DNA of 34,346 nucleotides from Spartobacteria bacterium (GTDB lineage: Bacteria; Verrucomicrobiota; Verrucomicrobiia; Chthoniobacterales; UBA6821): assembly GCA_947471565.1 (NCBI GenBank), contig CANIVT010000019.1:1-34346 (forward strand), written 5' to 3'. Positions 6,095 through 15,270 of the stretch are shown here, piece by piece; positions within the stretch are counted from its first letter, which is position 1; every line of letters starts with the position of its first letter. A program made the translations under genes and the position numbers. The notes under the pieces were generated by a model that was not told where the DNA came from, made no database searches, and saw nothing but the letters and a program-made list of their open reading frames with translations.

Positions 6095-7522
6095 TCAACC
6101 CACCTTGACCTTTGGGGCCTTGGGCTTCTCTTCTTCTTTGCCTGGAGTCTCACCCGATTTTTTCTCCTTGGAGGTCGGTGGGAGAACGGGAGGGAAGCCG
6201 TTGAGTCGGCGCCAGATTTCGTAACCGAGAGGCACCCGGTTCAGGAAGACCCAACCCACGACCTGATTCCCCTGCCGCAAAAATTTTGCGTCGGGCCATT
6301 CGTCGCCGGTCACATGATGCTCCGGTTCGATCAGGATCCGGAAATCACCCGTGGGCCCACTTGCCTGATCAACCTGCCGGACCTTCCCGCCGAACGTTCC
6401 AATGGAAACGTCGGGGAATCCTGAAAACAGGATCGCTGGCCACCCTTGGAACTGGAGACGGGCCGGCGGCAGGCTCCCCTTGCGATGTGCGTACGCCAGG
6501 ACAAGAGGTGCATCACGACCGTCCAGCGTCAGCTCGACAACCCGGTCCTTCGTGTCGGGGATGATGGTGCAGAGTTCGTCCCCCTCCTTGAGGTATTGTC
6601 CTCCGCCGCCAACATTGGCATGGACTCGGAAGACGAATCCGTCACAAGGTGCCACCACGTGGCGAGCCTTAAAACGCTCGACCCTGTTCTCGAGGTCCTG
6701 AACCTCCCTCTCCGTGGAGAAAAGGGTCTGCTCTCCCTTGCGGAGGTTGCTCCTAGCGACAGCGATTGAGGAAAGTCCGGCGGCATCCGTCTGAAGAACC
6801 TGCGCCTGCTGGGTGGCGTAGGCGGCCTTGGCCCTCTCGAGCTCGGCGGCCGAACGTTGCCGGTCGATGGAAGCCCTGTCGATCCGCAGCTTGGCCTCTT
6901 CGCGCGTGAGCTTGCTCTCGATGGCGCCGAGCGTACCGCTGGAATGGAGCTTATCGATCATGTCGAAACGGGTCTGCTCGAAGTTTTTCGAAAACTGCGC
7001 GTTGGAGAGGACATGATCGGCCACCTCCACGGACTGACGGGATGATTCGAGATTGGCCTTCGCCGCGTTGACGGCGGATTCGCGGGCGGCCTCCGTGGCC
7101 ACGGCTGCAGCGCGCAACTCCTCGACCTCCTGTTTTCCGGATGCAAGACGTCCGCGGAGGAACTCCAACTGGGCCAGGAGTCGGGGCCCGAGTTCGGGAT
7201 CGTTGTCCTCGAGGTCGACCACGGGGTCACCCTTTTTCACCACGGCTCCCTCGACGACGTGCCACTTTCGCACCTGTCCCGGGATGCGTGCCGTGAGCAC
7301 CTGGGAGCGCTCCACCGGAGAATAAGCGATCAAGGTGCCGCGACCCTGCACGGTCTGCTGCCACGGCACAAAGGCCAGCACGAACGGCGAGGCGGCCATG
7401 CACCAGAGCACGATACGGGAAATCCGACGGACAACGTCCGGGGTTTCCGTCGCACGTGTCAGATCCTCCCGGGTCACCGGAGTTCCACCGTGAGCTTCTT
7501 CGTGTGATTGGCTGAGGCTCAT
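6095..7522 (-). CDS. HlyD-family periplasmic adaptor (membrane fusion protein)
   Basis: This 475-residue adaptor would bridge an inner-membrane exporter to the outer membrane. An N-terminal cytoplasmic stretch precedes one membrane helix at about 37-54. A biotinyl-lipoyl half-domain follows (about 75-105, IPGQVRKWHVVEGAVVKKGD), then a long Ala/Glu/Arg-rich coiled coil (about 112-290) and the second lipoyl half (VVAPCDGFVFRVHANVGGGGQYLKEGD). The C-terminal tail is rich in Lys, Glu and Pro and looks disordered. The start codon overlaps the stop of the ABC gene by four bases (ATGA), so the pair is translationally coupled. No TolC-like outer-membrane gene is present here. The exported substrate is unknown. 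Confidence 0.88.
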   Translation of the reverse strand: MSLSQSHEEAHGGTPVTREDLTRATETPDVVRRISRIVLWCMAASPFVLAFVPWQQTVQGRGTLIAYSPVERSQVLTARIPGQVRKWHVVEGAVVKKGDPVVDLEDNDPELGPRLLAQLEFLRGRLASGKQEVEELRAAAVATEAARESAVNAAKANLESSRQSVEVADHVLSNAQFSKNFEQTRFDMIDKLHSSGTLGAIESKLTREEAKLRIDRASIDRQRSAAELERAKAAYATQQAQVLQTDAAGLSSIAVARSNLRKGEQTLFSTEREVQDLENRVERFKARHVVAPCDGFVFRVHANVGGGGQYLKEGDELCTIIPDTKDRVVELTLDGRDAPLVLAYAHRKGSLPPARLQFQGWPAILFSGFPDVSIGTFGGKVRQVDQASGPTGDFRILIEPEHHVTGDEWPDAKFLRQGNQVVGWVFLNRVPLGYEIWRRLNGFPPVLPPTSKEKKSGETPGKEEEKPKAPKVKVG

Positions 7523-9144
7523 GGGATCGTGACGGTGGTGCCGATGCGCTCCGCGACATCGCGCCTGGTCGTGGCCACGATCAGGGTCCAGGGGGCATCG
7601 GGAGAGGAAAGTCTGGCGATCAGGGCGGGATGGAGGGCCGGATCGAGCAGATCGAGCGTTCCGTCGAGAAGCATCAGACGCGGCTTGGCAAGGATGGATC
7701 GGGCGATTCCGAGTAGGACCAGTTCGGAGGCGGAGAGGGGGGATCCCGTCGAGGAAAGAGGAGTCGCCATCCCCTTGGGGAGGGTGTCGATGCGCCCGGA
7801 GAGCCCGGCATCGCGCAGAGCTTCTCGGATCTCCTCAATCCCAATCCCTTCGTTCCCGGCGCGAAGGTTCTCAAGAATGGTTCCGGAGAAAACCTCACCA
7901 CGGCCGGCATGGGCGATGAGGCTCCGGGCGGCGGCACGATCGAGCGAATGAGATCCGATCCCGTCGAAGGAGACCTGCGCTCCTTCGGGGGAACGGAGTA
8001 GCGAGATTGTCTCCAGAAAGTATGACTTGCCGCTTCCAGGACCACCGAGCAGAGCGATCCGCGAACCGGCAACTGCATCCAGCGAGATCTCACCATCGGC
8101 ACCCGGGCAGCTTGCCTTCACGGCCAGGGCTTTCTCCGATGGCTTCAGAATCTCACCCCCTTCTGATTCCAGGGCAAAACTGTCAATCACACCCAGCTTG
8201 TCGAGCGAGGCTTCCAGATCATAAAAGGACTCCAGATGCTTCCCGCTCTTGGCAAGGGCTGCCAGGACAAGGGTCACGATCAATTCGGAGGCGACCAACT
8301 GCCCCAGCGTGAGCTGGCGGTTGATGACCAACCATCCTCCGAGTCCCAGGAGCAAGGTGCTCGCCACGGCCTCCAGAAAGATCACGAACAGGGTCTGGCG
8401 CCAGACGATCCGATAATGGGATTTGCGGGCATCGACATAGCTGGCGGTGTGGGAGCGGGCGCGATTGATGGCCAGTTCCTGCATGGTGCCTGTTCGGAAA
8501 AGCGAGGGTGATCGGGCGATCTCTCCCAACCATCCCGCAAGGTCGAATTTGGCATAACTTTCCTCGATGCTCGAGGAGACGCCCCCCCTTCCGAGGACGA
8601 GAGTCACCACGATCACCGCAACCACGAGGATCACCGCAAAGGTGAGCAGGTAGGGATGGTAGCAGGAGAGTAGGACAAGGCCGACAAGCGTGATCATGAC
8701 GATGCCGACACCATCCACTAGGAGGCCGGCAAGTGCCTTCTGGACGGATACAACCTCGAAAAACCTGTTGGCCAGATCTCCCGCGTTGCGCCCCTCGAAC
8801 GTGGAGACGTCGGCTCGCGAAAAACGGGCCGAAAACCTTTCCGCGTAGCGAACGAAAAGACGTCGCTGGAGATATTCCGAGACCAGGATCTGAAGGGATT
8901 TCAGAGCGGCCGAGATGATCAGCAGCGTCAGCATCACCAACGCCAAGGCGATCACCGGCCAGAGCAGGACTCCGAAGGCGACGGTGTTCACGAGCGTTTC
9001 GATGGCGGCGGGTGCGACGATCGAAAGCAGCCCCACGCAGAGCGCGAAGACAAGGATCATCCCCACGTCACGGGGATCGAGATCGAGGGCGTTCCTGAGT
9101 CGCGTCCAGGAACCTTCGTCGGGATGATGGCGCGGGTGGGACAT
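7519..9144 (-). CDS. ABC exporter with degenerate nucleotide-binding domain
   Basis: A 541-residue half-transporter: a membrane domain with about six helices (roughly 25-310) fused to an ATPase domain. Walker A is good (GGPGSGKS, 367-374). Elsewhere the domain departs from consensus: the signature is LSASE instead of LSGGQ, the Walker B Asp494 is followed by Gly495 where catalytic Glu is expected (LMLLDGTLDLLD), and the switch His is Thr526 (IVATTRRD). It lacks the N-terminal C39 peptidase domain of bacteriocin exporters. I chose the ATG at 9144. An upstream TTG at 9192 lies within the -35 element of a good promoter. The gene is co-transcribed with the HlyD adaptor. It may be a slow, regulated or heterodimeric exporter. 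No partner subunit is visible. Confidence 0.8.
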   Translation of the reverse strand: MSHPRHHPDEGSWTRLRNALDLDPRDVGMILVFALCVGLLSIVAPAAIETLVNTVAFGVLLWPVIALALVMLTLLIISAALKSLQILVSEYLQRRLFVRYAERFSARFSRADVSTFEGRNAGDLANRFFEVVSVQKALAGLLVDGVGIVMITLVGLVLLSCYHPYLLTFAVILVVAVIVVTLVLGRGGVSSSIEESYAKFDLAGWLGEIARSPSLFRTGTMQELAINRARSHTASYVDARKSHYRIVWRQTLFVIFLEAVASTLLLGLGGWLVINRQLTLGQLVASELIVTLVLAALAKSGKHLESFYDLEASLDKLGVIDSFALESEGGEILKPSEKALAVKASCPGADGEISLDAVAGSRIALLGGPGSGKSYFLETISLLRSPEGAQVSFDGIGSHSLDRAAARSLIAHAGRGEVFSGTILENLRAGNEGIGIEEIREALRDAGLSGRIDTLPKGMATPLSSTGSPLSASELVLLGIARSILAKPRLMLLDGTLDLLDPALHPALIARLSSPDAPWTLIVATTRRDVAERIGTTVTIP

Positions 9145-9163: not shown

Positions 9164-9192
9164 AATATAGACCGGCGCTTCCGTTTGATCAA
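9164..9192 (-). promoter_or_regulatory. sigma-70-type promoter of the ABC/HlyD operon
   Basis: On the minus strand TTGATC (9192-9187) and TATATT (9169-9164) are separated by exactly 17 bases. Transcription would start near 9157, 13 bases before the ATG at 9144. The -35 element overlaps a half-site of the TTTGAT/ATCAAA motif described next, consistent with activator contact at the -35. Confidence 0.6.
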
Positions 9193-9265: not shown

Positions 9266-9302
9266 AGCACGGCATGCACATAGGTGCATACCGTGCTTTT
9301 TT
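9266..9302 (+). terminator. strong hairpin with T tract, plus-strand orientation
   Basis: A 14-bp stem with one mismatch (9266-9279 with 9284-9297, loop ATAG) is followed on the plus strand by six T. On the minus strand the same hairpin follows glnK1 by about 34 bases but has no T tract after it, only A before it. It may help end the dab-amtB1-glnK1 transcript. Its U-tract, though, would serve a plus-strand RNA starting in 9193-9265, where no gene is recognised. Confidence 0.65.
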
Positions 9303-9330
9303 CCTTTCCGGGAGCAATCAGGAACGCAGA

Positions 9331-11222
<1,892 letters not shown>

Positions 11223-11277: not shown

Positions 11278-13635
11278 TCACGCGATCACGGGCCTCCATC
11301 CACCCCGGCCATCCGACCAACCGTTGATCCGACCGTCTTTGTCCATGACGAAGAGGTCGATCCAGCCGTTGGCCACGAGATCGGAAACATGCCGGTGCTT
11401 GGCAAGTACCTTATCGATCGACTCCGCCGGAGCCTCCACGATGACGGCAAGCCGGAGCGGTTCATGGCGCCATTCCTGTCCATCATGCACCGACTGGAAG
11501 GGCAGGCCGTTCTTGAGATCGCCTCCATTCCCCTCGTGGACACCGAGCAGACCCGCCACGTTGTGGATCACCTTGTCACCTGCGCCGAAGAGCCGGTTAT
11601 CCACCGTGGATCCAAAGTACTGGAGATTGATCCAACTCGCCACGACCACCGGAGCGGTGAGTAGCAGCTCCAGCGTCGCCTCACCCTCGTCGAGATCATG
11701 CCGGTAGTCGTGCAGGAAGACCCTTCCATTAAGATCGAGCCCCCGTGTCCGCTCCCGCGGCGCGGCAATGAAGGCATGGTTGCCCGCAAGACCCCATTCT
11801 GGACGGACCTGCGCCCAATCCCGGCTCCTCAATCCGACCTTGGCTTCTAGCTCCGTCACGTCAGGATCAATTCCTAGCAGCGGCGCTCTCACCTTCCTGG
11901 CGATTCCGCCGGCAAGCCTGAGGTAGGCTGCGAGCAAGTTGACAGCTTCGGCGTGCGATTCAGGAACCGAGCCGAGGCCGAAGAGCGTCACCTCGTCGGT
12001 GGTCGTGTTGTGGAGGCCTGCCAGGAAGAGAGTTTCCTCCGGAATGATGATTCCCCGGTCAAACAACCCTTTCCGGACCGCGGGATCATTGAGGATGTCG
12101 GCGGCTGTCCTGGCATTGGCCTCACCGGTGTGGCCGCCGCAGGCACCGCAATCAAGGCTCGAGCCATAGGGGTTATTCTCCGTCCTACTCCCGTGGCCGC
12201 AGAGAAGGACCAACCGAGAGAGGCCTCCCTTGGCCATGCCCATGTGCCGCAGGGCACCTGCAGCGAGCGTCAGTTTCGTTTCCAAAGGCAGGACCGAGAC
12301 ATCGACATCGCAGCCGCAGCCCTGCTCGGAATGCGAGCGCCCCGTCAAATCCCGGATCATCCGGCCGACGAAACCGAGTCCAAGTGTCTCGATGAAGACA
12401 AAACTGGAAACCGCTGAGTTTTTGAATGACTTCCAAGCCCCGGCGAACCGCTTGTGCCTCGCGATCGCGCCGAGTTCACCCGGTGAACCATGGGCAGGGA
12501 CTTTCACGGCGGGGCTCAGGAGCACGGGGCACTGGGGGGTGCCGCTTGTCTCGCCCGCAGGCACCGCCTCGATCGGAAACCCGAAGAATCCAGCAAACCC
12601 GATCGTCTTTCCCGCTGGCGCGACCTTTTCGAGCGCCCTCCGGAAGACCTCCGACCGGACATCGATACAGAAGACCGCCTGGAAGTCGGGGGTTCCCGAG
12701 TCCTTGCCTCCGCCGAGCGAGGCAAGCTGACCAAAGAGCTTCCGCCGGGTGGCGATCTCGTGGGCCCGCTGCCAGAGGAACCGAGGGGCGGCTGCCGTGA
12801 GCCCGGTCTTTGCTGGATCCGCCTGGGCGGAGGTTGCGGACGAAGGGAAGGCGTGTTGCAGCGCGCACTCGTAGACCAGCCTGATGGCGAGCAGATGCTT
12901 CAGCGTGTCGTCAGCTTCACCCTGCAGGCGTTTTTCATGCGCAAGGAATTGCAGGTGACCGGCCCATCCGCCAATGCCGAGCAGCAGGGAGTGAAAGACC
13001 TCGACTGCCCCTTCACCATCCAGTCCCAACTCCCTTGCCGCCCGGTCGATCTCGATGGCGGGATCATCACCGATCCCCCCGACGAAGTTCAGCCATCCCT
13101 TCAGGCCAGCCGTCTCGGGATTCCTATCGAGCGCAGCGGCCTGCCGCCACGCTGTGAAGAGTGGCTGTCCTTTCCAGGGAAATCCCCAGAGCGCCTGACC
13201 GCCATCGAAATAGGCCGTGCACCACTTGGAAATCTCCTCGGTGACAAACGCACCCCACCGGGTTCCCGACTCCGCGTCAATCCGTGCGCTCGGCAAGCCG
13301 AGGGAAGCAGGGGGAAGTTCCCATGCATCCGCGCGGAGGGCAGCGACGAGATCCTCCGGGGAAAGGTCGGCATTGGCCTCACTGATCGCCCTCCGTAGAT
13401 CTTCGGAGGTGATCCTTCCGACCAGGTGTCGTTCCCGATAGAAGGAGGGAGGGAGTGCAAGGGGCGTGCCGGCATTCCGTGCCAGCACCTCGGCGGCCTC
13501 GGCGAAGGGCATGCCGGAGAGTCCTACGAAAGGATTCACGGCGACAAACCTCGAGAGCGGCCAGAGTGGAGCGATGCGGGACATGGCCTTGTCGGCCTGC
13601 TGCTTGAACGAGAGGGTGGAATCGTTGCAATTCAT
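11278..13635 (-). CDS. dabA: DabA, zinc-binding subunit of a DAB inorganic-carbon pump (UPF0753/DUF2309)
   Basis: A 785-residue cytoplasmic protein of the family whose Halothiobacillus member forms, with DabB, an energy-coupled CO2-hydrating pump (DABs accumulate bicarbonate). It has a beta-carbonic-anhydrase-like zinc site: Cys323 and Asp325 in VFCIDVRSE, His481 in LCGHGS and Cys496 in LDCGACGG. The 15-residue spacing between the last two equals that in the characterised protein. Length and N-terminus (an acidic lead, then APLWPLSRFVAVNPF) are typical. It follows dabB by 45 bases and precedes amtB1 by 55 bases. The expected product is bicarbonate in the cytoplasm for carboxylation reactions; whether the organism fixes carbon autotrophically cannot be told here. 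Confidence 0.93.
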   Translation of the reverse strand: MNCNDSTLSFKQQADKAMSRIAPLWPLSRFVAVNPFVGLSGMPFAEAAEVLARNAGTPLALPPSFYRERHLVGRITSEDLRRAISEANADLSPEDLVAALRADAWELPPASLGLPSARIDAESGTRWGAFVTEEISKWCTAYFDGGQALWGFPWKGQPLFTAWRQAAALDRNPETAGLKGWLNFVGGIGDDPAIEIDRAARELGLDGEGAVEVFHSLLLGIGGWAGHLQFLAHEKRLQGEADDTLKHLLAIRLVYECALQHAFPSSATSAQADPAKTGLTAAAPRFLWQRAHEIATRRKLFGQLASLGGGKDSGTPDFQAVFCIDVRSEVFRRALEKVAPAGKTIGFAGFFGFPIEAVPAGETSGTPQCPVLLSPAVKVPAHGSPGELGAIARHKRFAGAWKSFKNSAVSSFVFIETLGLGFVGRMIRDLTGRSHSEQGCGCDVDVSVLPLETKLTLAAGALRHMGMAKGGLSRLVLLCGHGSRTENNPYGSSLDCGACGGHTGEANARTAADILNDPAVRKGLFDRGIIIPEETLFLAGLHNTTTDEVTLFGLGSVPESHAEAVNLLAAYLRLAGGIARKVRAPLLGIDPDVTELEAKVGLRSRDWAQVRPEWGLAGNHAFIAAPRERTRGLDLNGRVFLHDYRHDLDEGEATLELLLTAPVVVASWINLQYFGSTVDNRLFGAGDKVIHNVAGLLGVHEGNGGDLKNGLPFQSVHDGQEWRHEPLRLAVIVEAPAESIDKVLAKHRHVSDLVANGWIDLFVMDKDGRINGWSDGRGGWRPVIA

Positions 13636-13680: not shown

Positions 13681-15270
13681 TCAGGATTTTCGGGATCGGG
13701 GCGGCCAGAGAGAGGCGATCAGGCGGTTGGCCGCCGTGTTGACATAGAAACCGTTGTAGGCGTGGACGAAGAGCGCCCGCCCCGCGGCGGTCGAGACCCA
13801 TGTCGGTGGAAGAAAGGCCCGGAGGGCAAGCAGTAGGAAAGAGAACGCCGTGACCAGCGCGATCGGCCAGGCAAGCGTGAACGTGGGGGCCGGGGCGACC
13901 GAGGTGCCGAGCAGATGCCGCGTCCCCTCGTGAAGCGCGACCGAGAGGAGACCGACGCCTGCGGCGACGGCGAGTCCGGAGAGGAGACCGATGATTCCGG
14001 AGGAAGTCGACCACCAGTGCCAGAGCAATTGGGCAAGAGCCACGGCGAGGATCAGTCCCAGGCCGAACCGACCGGAGTCGGCCCAGAGAGCGCCGCCCGA
14101 CACGAGGGAAAGAAGTCCGACAAGCGCACCCGCCACGGAGAAAGCGGCGAGGGCGCCGAGGACCCCCCGGTAGCGCCGTGCGGGCGGGGATCCGACTGCA
14201 CGGGCCGCGGCGATCACGCTTCCCGAGGAGAGGAAGGCATGGGCCTTGTACAGGGAGTGAGCGGCGATGTGGAGCAGGGCCAGCGCGAAAGCGCCAAGGC
14301 CGCATTGCAGCATCATGAAGCCCATCTGCGCGACCGTGGAGAAGGCGAGCGTCCGCTTCACGCTGGTCTGCGTGATCATGACTAGGGAACCGAAGAGGGC
14401 GGTGAATCCACCCACGGCGGCGAGCAACTCGAGGGCATGGGGAGCCTTGGCCATCAGTGGACTGAATCTGATAATGAGGAAGCCGCCGGCGTTGATGATC
14501 CCCGCATGCATGAGTGCCGAGACCGGCGTGGGAGTCTCCATGGTGTCGGGAAGCCAACCATGGAAGGGAAATTGGGCCGACTTCAGCACCGCTGCCAGTA
14601 CCAGAAGGAGCGCGATGCCTTGGATCGCTCCCGAATGCCCCCCCGCATCCCCGGATGCCGCGGCAAAGAGGGGTGCGTAGTCGAGAGTTCCGAAAGAACG
14701 CCAAGCGGTCCAGAGCGAGGCGAGGAGGGCGATATCGCCGAGCCTGCTGAAAAGGAACTTCTTCCGTGCGGCCATCATGGCGGCGGGCCTGTCGGGATAG
14801 AAGGTGAGCAACTTGTGCAATGCCATGCTAACCCCCATCCATGAGAGGACGAAGAGGGCGAGGTTCCCGGAGACCACTAGCAAAAGCACGCATCCAGCGG
14901 TCACCGAGAGCCATTTAAAGAAGCGGCCCTGGTCGGGATTGCCGGCCAGATAATTCCCCGAGAAACGGATCACGGCGACTGCCAGAAAGGCCGCCAGCAC
15001 GAGCATCACCGAGGAGACGGCGTCGAAGTAGGTGGAAAGAGCAACCGGCCCATACGAGGCCGCTGTGAATTCCAACGGATGTCCCGCAAGCACCAGGGCT
15101 CCGGCCGAGACGAGCGCCAGGAGGAGGGAAATCAATCCGAGGATCTGGCTGGCTTTGCCTGTCCATGCAGGCATGGCATTGGCGACTCCCCTCGGTAGCA
15201 CGAGCACAGCCAGAAGCGGCAGCGGTACGAGGAGTGGGAGGAGGAAGGCGGACGAGGCGTTTTGATTCAT
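13681..15270 (-). CDS. dabB: DabB, membrane subunit of a DAB inorganic-carbon pump
   Basis: A 529-residue integral membrane protein of the proton-translocating NuoL/Mrp antiporter family. It has about 13-14 hydrophobic helices and the family core with conserved Lys and His (KSAQFPFHGWLPDTMETPTPVSALMHA is recognisable near residues 239-265; also HIAAHSLYKAHAFLSSG further on). Paired directly with dabA, it is DabB and not a respiratory complex I subunit. It is thought to use the cation gradient to make CO2 hydration by DabA unidirectional. It is the first gene of dabB-dabA-amtB1-glnK1 and is divergent from lysR, with a palindromic operator in the 79-base gap. Confidence 0.9.
   Translation of the reverse strand: MNQNASSAFLLPLLVPLPLLAVLVLPRGVANAMPAWTGKASQILGLISLLLALVSAGALVLAGHPLEFTAASYGPVALSTYFDAVSSVMLVLAAFLAVAVIRFSGNYLAGNPDQGRFFKWLSVTAGCVLLLVVSGNLALFVLSWMGVSMALHKLLTFYPDRPAAMMAARKKFLFSRLGDIALLASLWTAWRSFGTLDYAPLFAAASGDAGGHSGAIQGIALLLVLAAVLKSAQFPFHGWLPDTMETPTPVSALMHAGIINAGGFLIIRFSPLMAKAPHALELLAAVGGFTALFGSLVMITQTSVKRTLAFSTVAQMGFMMLQCGLGAFALALLHIAAHSLYKAHAFLSSGSVIAAARAVGSPPARRYRGVLGALAAFSVAGALVGLLSLVSGGALWADSGRFGLGLILAVALAQLLWHWWSTSSGIIGLLSGLAVAAGVGLLSVALHEGTRHLLGTSVAPAPTFTLAWPIALVTAFSFLLLALRAFLPPTWVSTAAGRALFVHAYNGFYVNTAANRLIASLWPPRSRKS

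Follow-up and report, generated by a model that had tools for sequence, protein, structure and literature searches.

We propose that the ABC protein encoded at 7519-9144 of the window (the whole 34,346-nucleotide stretch analysed here, contig 19 of a 2.28 Mb Spartobacteria assembly that is 97% complete) is the core of a tripartite exporter whose nucleotide domains are non-catalytic and at most ATP-gating, and which is possibly driven by ions. We put the probability of this reading at about 50%. Judged by their motifs, the ATPase domains are not a normal hydrolytic motor. The loss of catalytic residues is a trait of a whole family and not of one odd gene, which the earlier note, made from this DNA alone, could not see.

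The ABC gene is an unbroken minus-strand open reading frame with an ATG start, and its translation is a protein of 541 aa. A PF00664 membrane domain (2.3e-9) is followed by a PF00005 ATPase domain (4.4e-11). Both are above the Pfam cut-off and the modelled fold also matches, placing the protein in the ABC exporter superfamily (type IV fold). The features of the locus are as follows.

6095 to 7522, minus strand: HlyD-family periplasmic adaptor, 475 aa (PF13437, 4e-10)
7519 to 9144, minus strand: ABC exporter half-transporter, 541 aa, with a degenerate ATPase domain; the ATG start is common to all five same-genus orthologues
7522 to 8109, minus strand: ABC ATPase (nucleotide-binding) domain, residues 346-541
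7567 to 7569, minus strand: switch position, Thr526 for His
7660 to 7677, minus strand: Walker B LMLLDG, with Gly495 at the position of the catalytic Glu (7660-7662)
7723 to 7737, minus strand: signature LSASE for LSGGQ, residues 470-474
7903 to 7905, minus strand: Q-loop position, Gly414 with Gln absent; the register is uncertain by one residue either way
8023 to 8046, minus strand: Walker A GGPGSGKS, residues 367-374, normal
8110 to 9087, minus strand: ABC membrane domain, residues 20-345, in this family more conserved than the ATPase half
8284 to 8286, minus strand: Glu287 in TM6; conserved as Glu in 86 of 88 family members, against 0 of 29 control exporters
9164 to 9192, minus strand: sigma-70-like promoter match TTGATC-17-TATATT, 5' of the ABC gene, a match to the consensus only

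Translation of 7519-9144 bore out what the earlier note had read in the motifs, namely a kept Walker A with LSASE, DG and Thr in place of LSGGQ, DE and the switch His. Two changes can be added to its list: the Q-loop Gln is missing, and in the alignment the D-loop Ser is replaced by Asp. The window protein does not have the catalytically complete ATPase site of type I secretion proteins. Since the ATPase fold and Walker A are kept, its ATPase domains probably still bind ATP. Hydrolysis is likely absent or far below the canonical level. Rfam and tRNA scans of the window gave no matches.

The ABC gene was present in five of the 15 other genomes of the same genus (E < 1e-40). These orthologues come from Spartobacteria or Chthoniobacterales MAGs, one of them labelled Proteobacteria. 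They are 79-91% identical, and all five carry DG, TT and LS[AT]SE. The degenerate ATPase domain is under purifying selection: across the genus, dN/dS was 0.08-0.13 in 15 pairs, the same pairs giving 0.04-0.14 for the membrane domain. A decaying pseudogene or a sequencing error would explain the odd motifs, and nothing else points to it. Since the same residues recur in all five orthologues and dN/dS is low, this explanation was rejected and its chance is negligible. The gene is thus no pseudogene, as had been proposed. It had also been proposed that orthologues with normal DE and His would point to a local mutation or error. None of the five in the genus has these residues, while 11 of 88 distant members of the family are complete.

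The HlyD gene shares 4 bases with the end of the ABC gene, at its stop codon, and the window has the adaptor that a tripartite ABC exporter should have. Among the 58 family loci with flanks, HlyD adjoins the ABC gene in 56; in the other two a contig end truncates the locus. In 51 of the 58 loci an OEP/TolC-type gene lies close to the ABC gene; OEP identity was checked with Pfam on representative loci. Of the seven loci without OEP, contig ends truncate three, and the other four belong to the window genus (one of these is also truncated). In the window genus no TolC-type gene is linked to the ABC-HlyD pair, and OEP proteins are encoded elsewhere in the window genome. No cargo was recognised beside the pair. 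The ABC protein, as a homodimer, would form the core, in the inner membrane, of a tripartite complex similar to type I secretion systems, together with the HlyD adaptor and a TolC-type channel, the latter encoded unlinked in the window genus.

Upstream of the ABC gene on the same strand there is a P-II gene (9331-9669), followed by an ORF (9714-11222) that is presumably ammonium-transporter-like. The ORFs at 11278-13635 and 13681-15270 we take to be a DabA/DabB-type pair for inorganic-carbon uptake. A 112-aa ORF is found at the place of P-II in three of the five same-genus loci (L012, L018, L019). Between the P-II and ABC genes, a near-perfect inverted repeat followed by six T (plus strand) was seen by eye at 9266-9303; the terminator scan did not report it.

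A whole-protein scan of genome contigs gave 30 loci, titled as Planctomycetota, Acidobacteria, Verrucomicrobia, Methylococcaceae and, in one case, a deltaproteobacterium. The family profile was then built from the membrane domain alone, and the ATPase domain had no part in the choice of members. With this profile, the family was found in 7 of 387 genomes of the window's own phylum, 44 of 392 genomes of the planctomycete phylum (that of the Pirellulaceae genome G422) and 11 of 297 genomes of the acidobacterial phylum (that of G419). Merging identical copies and dropping four rows left 88 aligned members. The dropped rows were L096 and L107, whose ATPase domain is cut by a contig end, the second fragment of L043, and L003, an ordinary exporter; L043 itself was kept though its frame is broken.

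Among these 88 members, Walker A Lys is kept in 75, Walker A Gly in 78 and Walker B Asp in 84. The signature Ser is kept in 67, the signature Gly-4 in 27, the catalytic Glu in 22 (with Asp in five more) and the switch His in only 12. The Q-loop Gln is mostly absent; we give no count since counts depend on gap placement, most members being one residue shorter there. Eleven members have the complete set of Lys, Gly, Ser, Gly-4, Glu and His, and eight of them form one clade from the acidobacterial set (L086-L093). This clade keeps Lys, signature Gly, Glu and His and does not keep the Q-loop Gln, and is a natural active-looking comparator.

The ATPase domains appear to be maintained even where Walker A is altered. 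Three pairs without normal Walker A residues had ATPase-domain dN/dS of 0.12, 0.09 and 0.07, while six pairs keeping Walker A had 0.05 to 0.27; in a further pair without normal Walker A (L048/L049), dN/dS was saturated. Since the domains are kept, they do something. Furthermore, 57 of the 88 members have more than 150 codons before the membrane domain in open frame. In most members outside the window genus (for example L021:4371-4970) this amounts to about 170-200 residues, and no Pfam family was found in the eight such extensions scanned. The extension is possibly, as a guess, the remnant of a C39-like domain.

Two sets of control exporters, ordinary ones taken from genomes of this kind, were used for comparison. 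The first consisted of the best TIGR03375 matches (34 loci, 33 distinct). Since this set is biased towards good ATPase domains, a second was chosen by PF00664. It comprises 29 loci (the 30 best matches, out of a larger number, minus the family member L220) and shares proteins with the first. The PF00664-chosen controls have Lys, Gly-4 and His in 29 of 29, and Glu in 27 with Asp in the other two; both sets gave the same contrast with the family. One of the 33 distinct first-set controls (L150) carries D in place of E and N in place of H, and thus mild degeneration occurs elsewhere. Averaged over pairs of family members, the membrane domains are 50% identical and the ATPase domains 37%, while in the first control set the values are 21% and 44%, respectively. 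The absolute values are not comparable because family members are closer kin than the controls; it is the order within the sets that is reversed.

The presence of residues was mapped on a quickly built maximum-likelihood tree of the membrane domain and compared with 100 shuffles. There were 6 changes for Lys, 10 for Gly-4, 6 for Glu and 4 for His, compared with shuffle means of 12.4, 23.2, 19.5 and 11.5. With six canonical outgroups the numbers were 6, 10, 7 and 5, on a tree whose outgroup branch is very long and many of whose branches are weakly supported. The residue states follow clades, yet they have changed several times. The changes are read as losses because the residues are conserved in ordinary exporters.

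Heterodimeric exporters often have a single degenerate site, as PMC7756269 describes, and the window protein might pair with an unlinked, catalytically complete half-transporter. However, its genome encodes just five PF00664 proteins. The four besides the window protein have Walker A, signature, Glu and His all intact, so none has a complementary defect, contrary to the unlinked partner suggested in the earlier note. Two related statements of that note hold: no partner gene is linked to the locus, and in a homodimer both sites would be impaired. Since the catalytic Glu and the signature Gly are both lost, no partner could make either composite site whole. In 53 of the 88 members Glu/Asp and signature Gly-4 are likewise both lost, and thus each composite site of any dimer would hold a defective half. 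Moreover, there is one family copy per genome (no further copy at E 1e-10 in 24 locus genomes, in two of which the gene is in two pieces), and no second ABC ATPase adjoins 57 of the 58 loci; L019 has an ABC gene 4 kb away. No subunit completing one canonical site was found in the genome or the loci, and a heterodimer is therefore very unlikely.

Alternatively, the protein might be a true but slow or unconventional ATPase, in which substitutes such as the D-loop-position Asp replace Glu and His and hydrolysis powers export. Walker A is intact in the window protein and its Lys is present in most of the family, Asp is conserved across the family (73 of 88) where the D-loop Ser would be, and degenerate single sites are tolerated beside a canonical one (PMC7756269). 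On the other hand, Glu, His, signature Gly and Q-loop Gln are jointly missing in the window protein. Seventeen of the 88 members have lost Walker A Gly or Lys, nine of them also having no Glu/Asp, and the D-loop-position Asp persists in 15 of these 17. It is thus not explained by catalysis, and its role as a substitute catalyst is disfavoured. In some members the ATPase domain is degraded throughout; for L095 the Pfam ABC_tran model gave no match up to E 1. Hydrolysis-powered export is therefore rather unlikely for the window protein. Part of the family may be ordinary ATPases, since 11 of the 88 are complete, though most of these do not have the Q-loop Gln.

A secondary SecA ATPase as replacement motor, an idea taken from PMC4452313, was rejected for the window, since its genome has a single SecA match (a 1004-aa frame). 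Nor is such a motor general, as the family genomes G417, G431, G432 and G434, among others, also have one match. Extra SecA_DEAD proteins of about 630-660 codons were seen in several planctomycete-type genomes, among them G747, G547, G418 and G421, with up to four SecA matches in G747 (compare PMC4452313).

The protein might also be a structural or regulatory gate and no motor at all, the complex being a passive or regulated conduit or the ABC protein a dock of HlyD and TolC for another transporter. Asn426 and Arg482, which are in the ATPase domain and outside the catalytic set, are invariant in all 88 members, and the frequent linkage of TolC-type genes is also consistent with this. However, the membrane domain is the most conserved part and has many invariant polar residues, more in keeping with a path for the substrate than with a scaffold. 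In addition, there is one inner-membrane exporter per locus, save for the distant ABC gene of L019. We consider this explanation improbable.

We return to an exporter core in which ATP binding would at most gate the protein or stabilise one of its states. An ion gradient would power export, as has been reported for LmrA without its NBD and for NBD-less SbmA. LmrA lacking the NBD carries out proton-coupled transport, and its pH dependence needs a Glu in TM6 (PMC2704374, PMC6155054), while SbmA, a transporter with the same fold that is driven by protons, is regarded as a probable derivative of ABC transporters (PMC13316013). By analogy with these precedents, an ion gradient is the energy source that we favour, tentatively. 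The monomer structure model of the window protein (mean pLDDT 78) best matches PCAT1 (8vow) and HlyB (8dck) in the PDB, with TM-scores of 0.64 and 0.67 and an rmsd near 13 A. The membrane domain is rich in invariant polar residues; Glu195, His243, Lys299 and Asp309 are invariant across the family. Glu287 is near the start of TM6. Since it is also present in the 11 complete members, it does not track the loss of the motor. The distances to Walker A differ between Glu287 and the TM6 Glu of LmrA. Glu287 is a candidate ion or substrate site, and no equivalence to LmrA Glu314 is claimed.

The main known cases of transport by ABC exporters without ATP hydrolysis are engineered truncations (LmrA-MD) and SbmA, a protein lacking an ATPase domain. 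In the natural family described here the motor has been lost to different degrees, the operons are intact and some members look canonical, and thus hydrolysis-free export is testable by comparison of members. Perhaps, though we hold this with reserve, the family represents multi-phylum tripartite exporters that have repeatedly dispensed with hydrolysis, are driven by ions and retain a fossil ATPase as gate, with stages from intact to degraded. It may not be ordinary ATP hydrolysis that powers these pumps, and in many planctomycetes the annotation of such genes as ATP-driven type I secretion proteins may be mistaken. No description of the family was found in titles and abstracts of open-licence PMC papers, which is weak evidence of novelty.

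In fold and domain order, the family resembles the ABC proteins of type I secretion (HlyB, LssB, PrtD) and PCAT1/NHLM-type proteins, and most of its loci have the HlyD adaptor and TolC-type gene of type I secretion systems. In contrast to these systems, the window protein has lost catalytic residues, and the window pair has no adjacent TolC gene or recognised cargo. The window protein is far below every curated NCBIfam cut-off. Its best match is TIGR03796 (141 of 853 bits), and the curated type I secretion models TIGR03375 (105 of 693 bits) and TIGR01846 (95 of 726) are not reached. Heterodimeric exporters (TM287/288, TAP, MRP1, Pdr5 NBS1) show the same kinds of substitution at Glu, His and the signature, and site 1 of Pdr5 is as strongly altered as the sites of the window protein (PMC7756269). 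However, they keep one canonical site, while for the window protein no partner was found and both sites would be affected. SbmA-like peptide transporters (SLiPT) and NBD-less LmrA, as far as the sources cited above describe them, work without ATP hydrolysis on an ABC-exporter membrane fold in which membrane glutamates are important. SbmA has neither NBD nor coupling helices and imports, whereas the family keeps the NBD fold and its operon suggests export. The secondary SecA_DEAD/HlyD/OEP loci of PVC bacteria also combine HlyD with OEP and occur in overlapping phyla; the ATPase proposed for them is a different one and, in the authors' own account, an ABC homologue is absent (PMC4452313).
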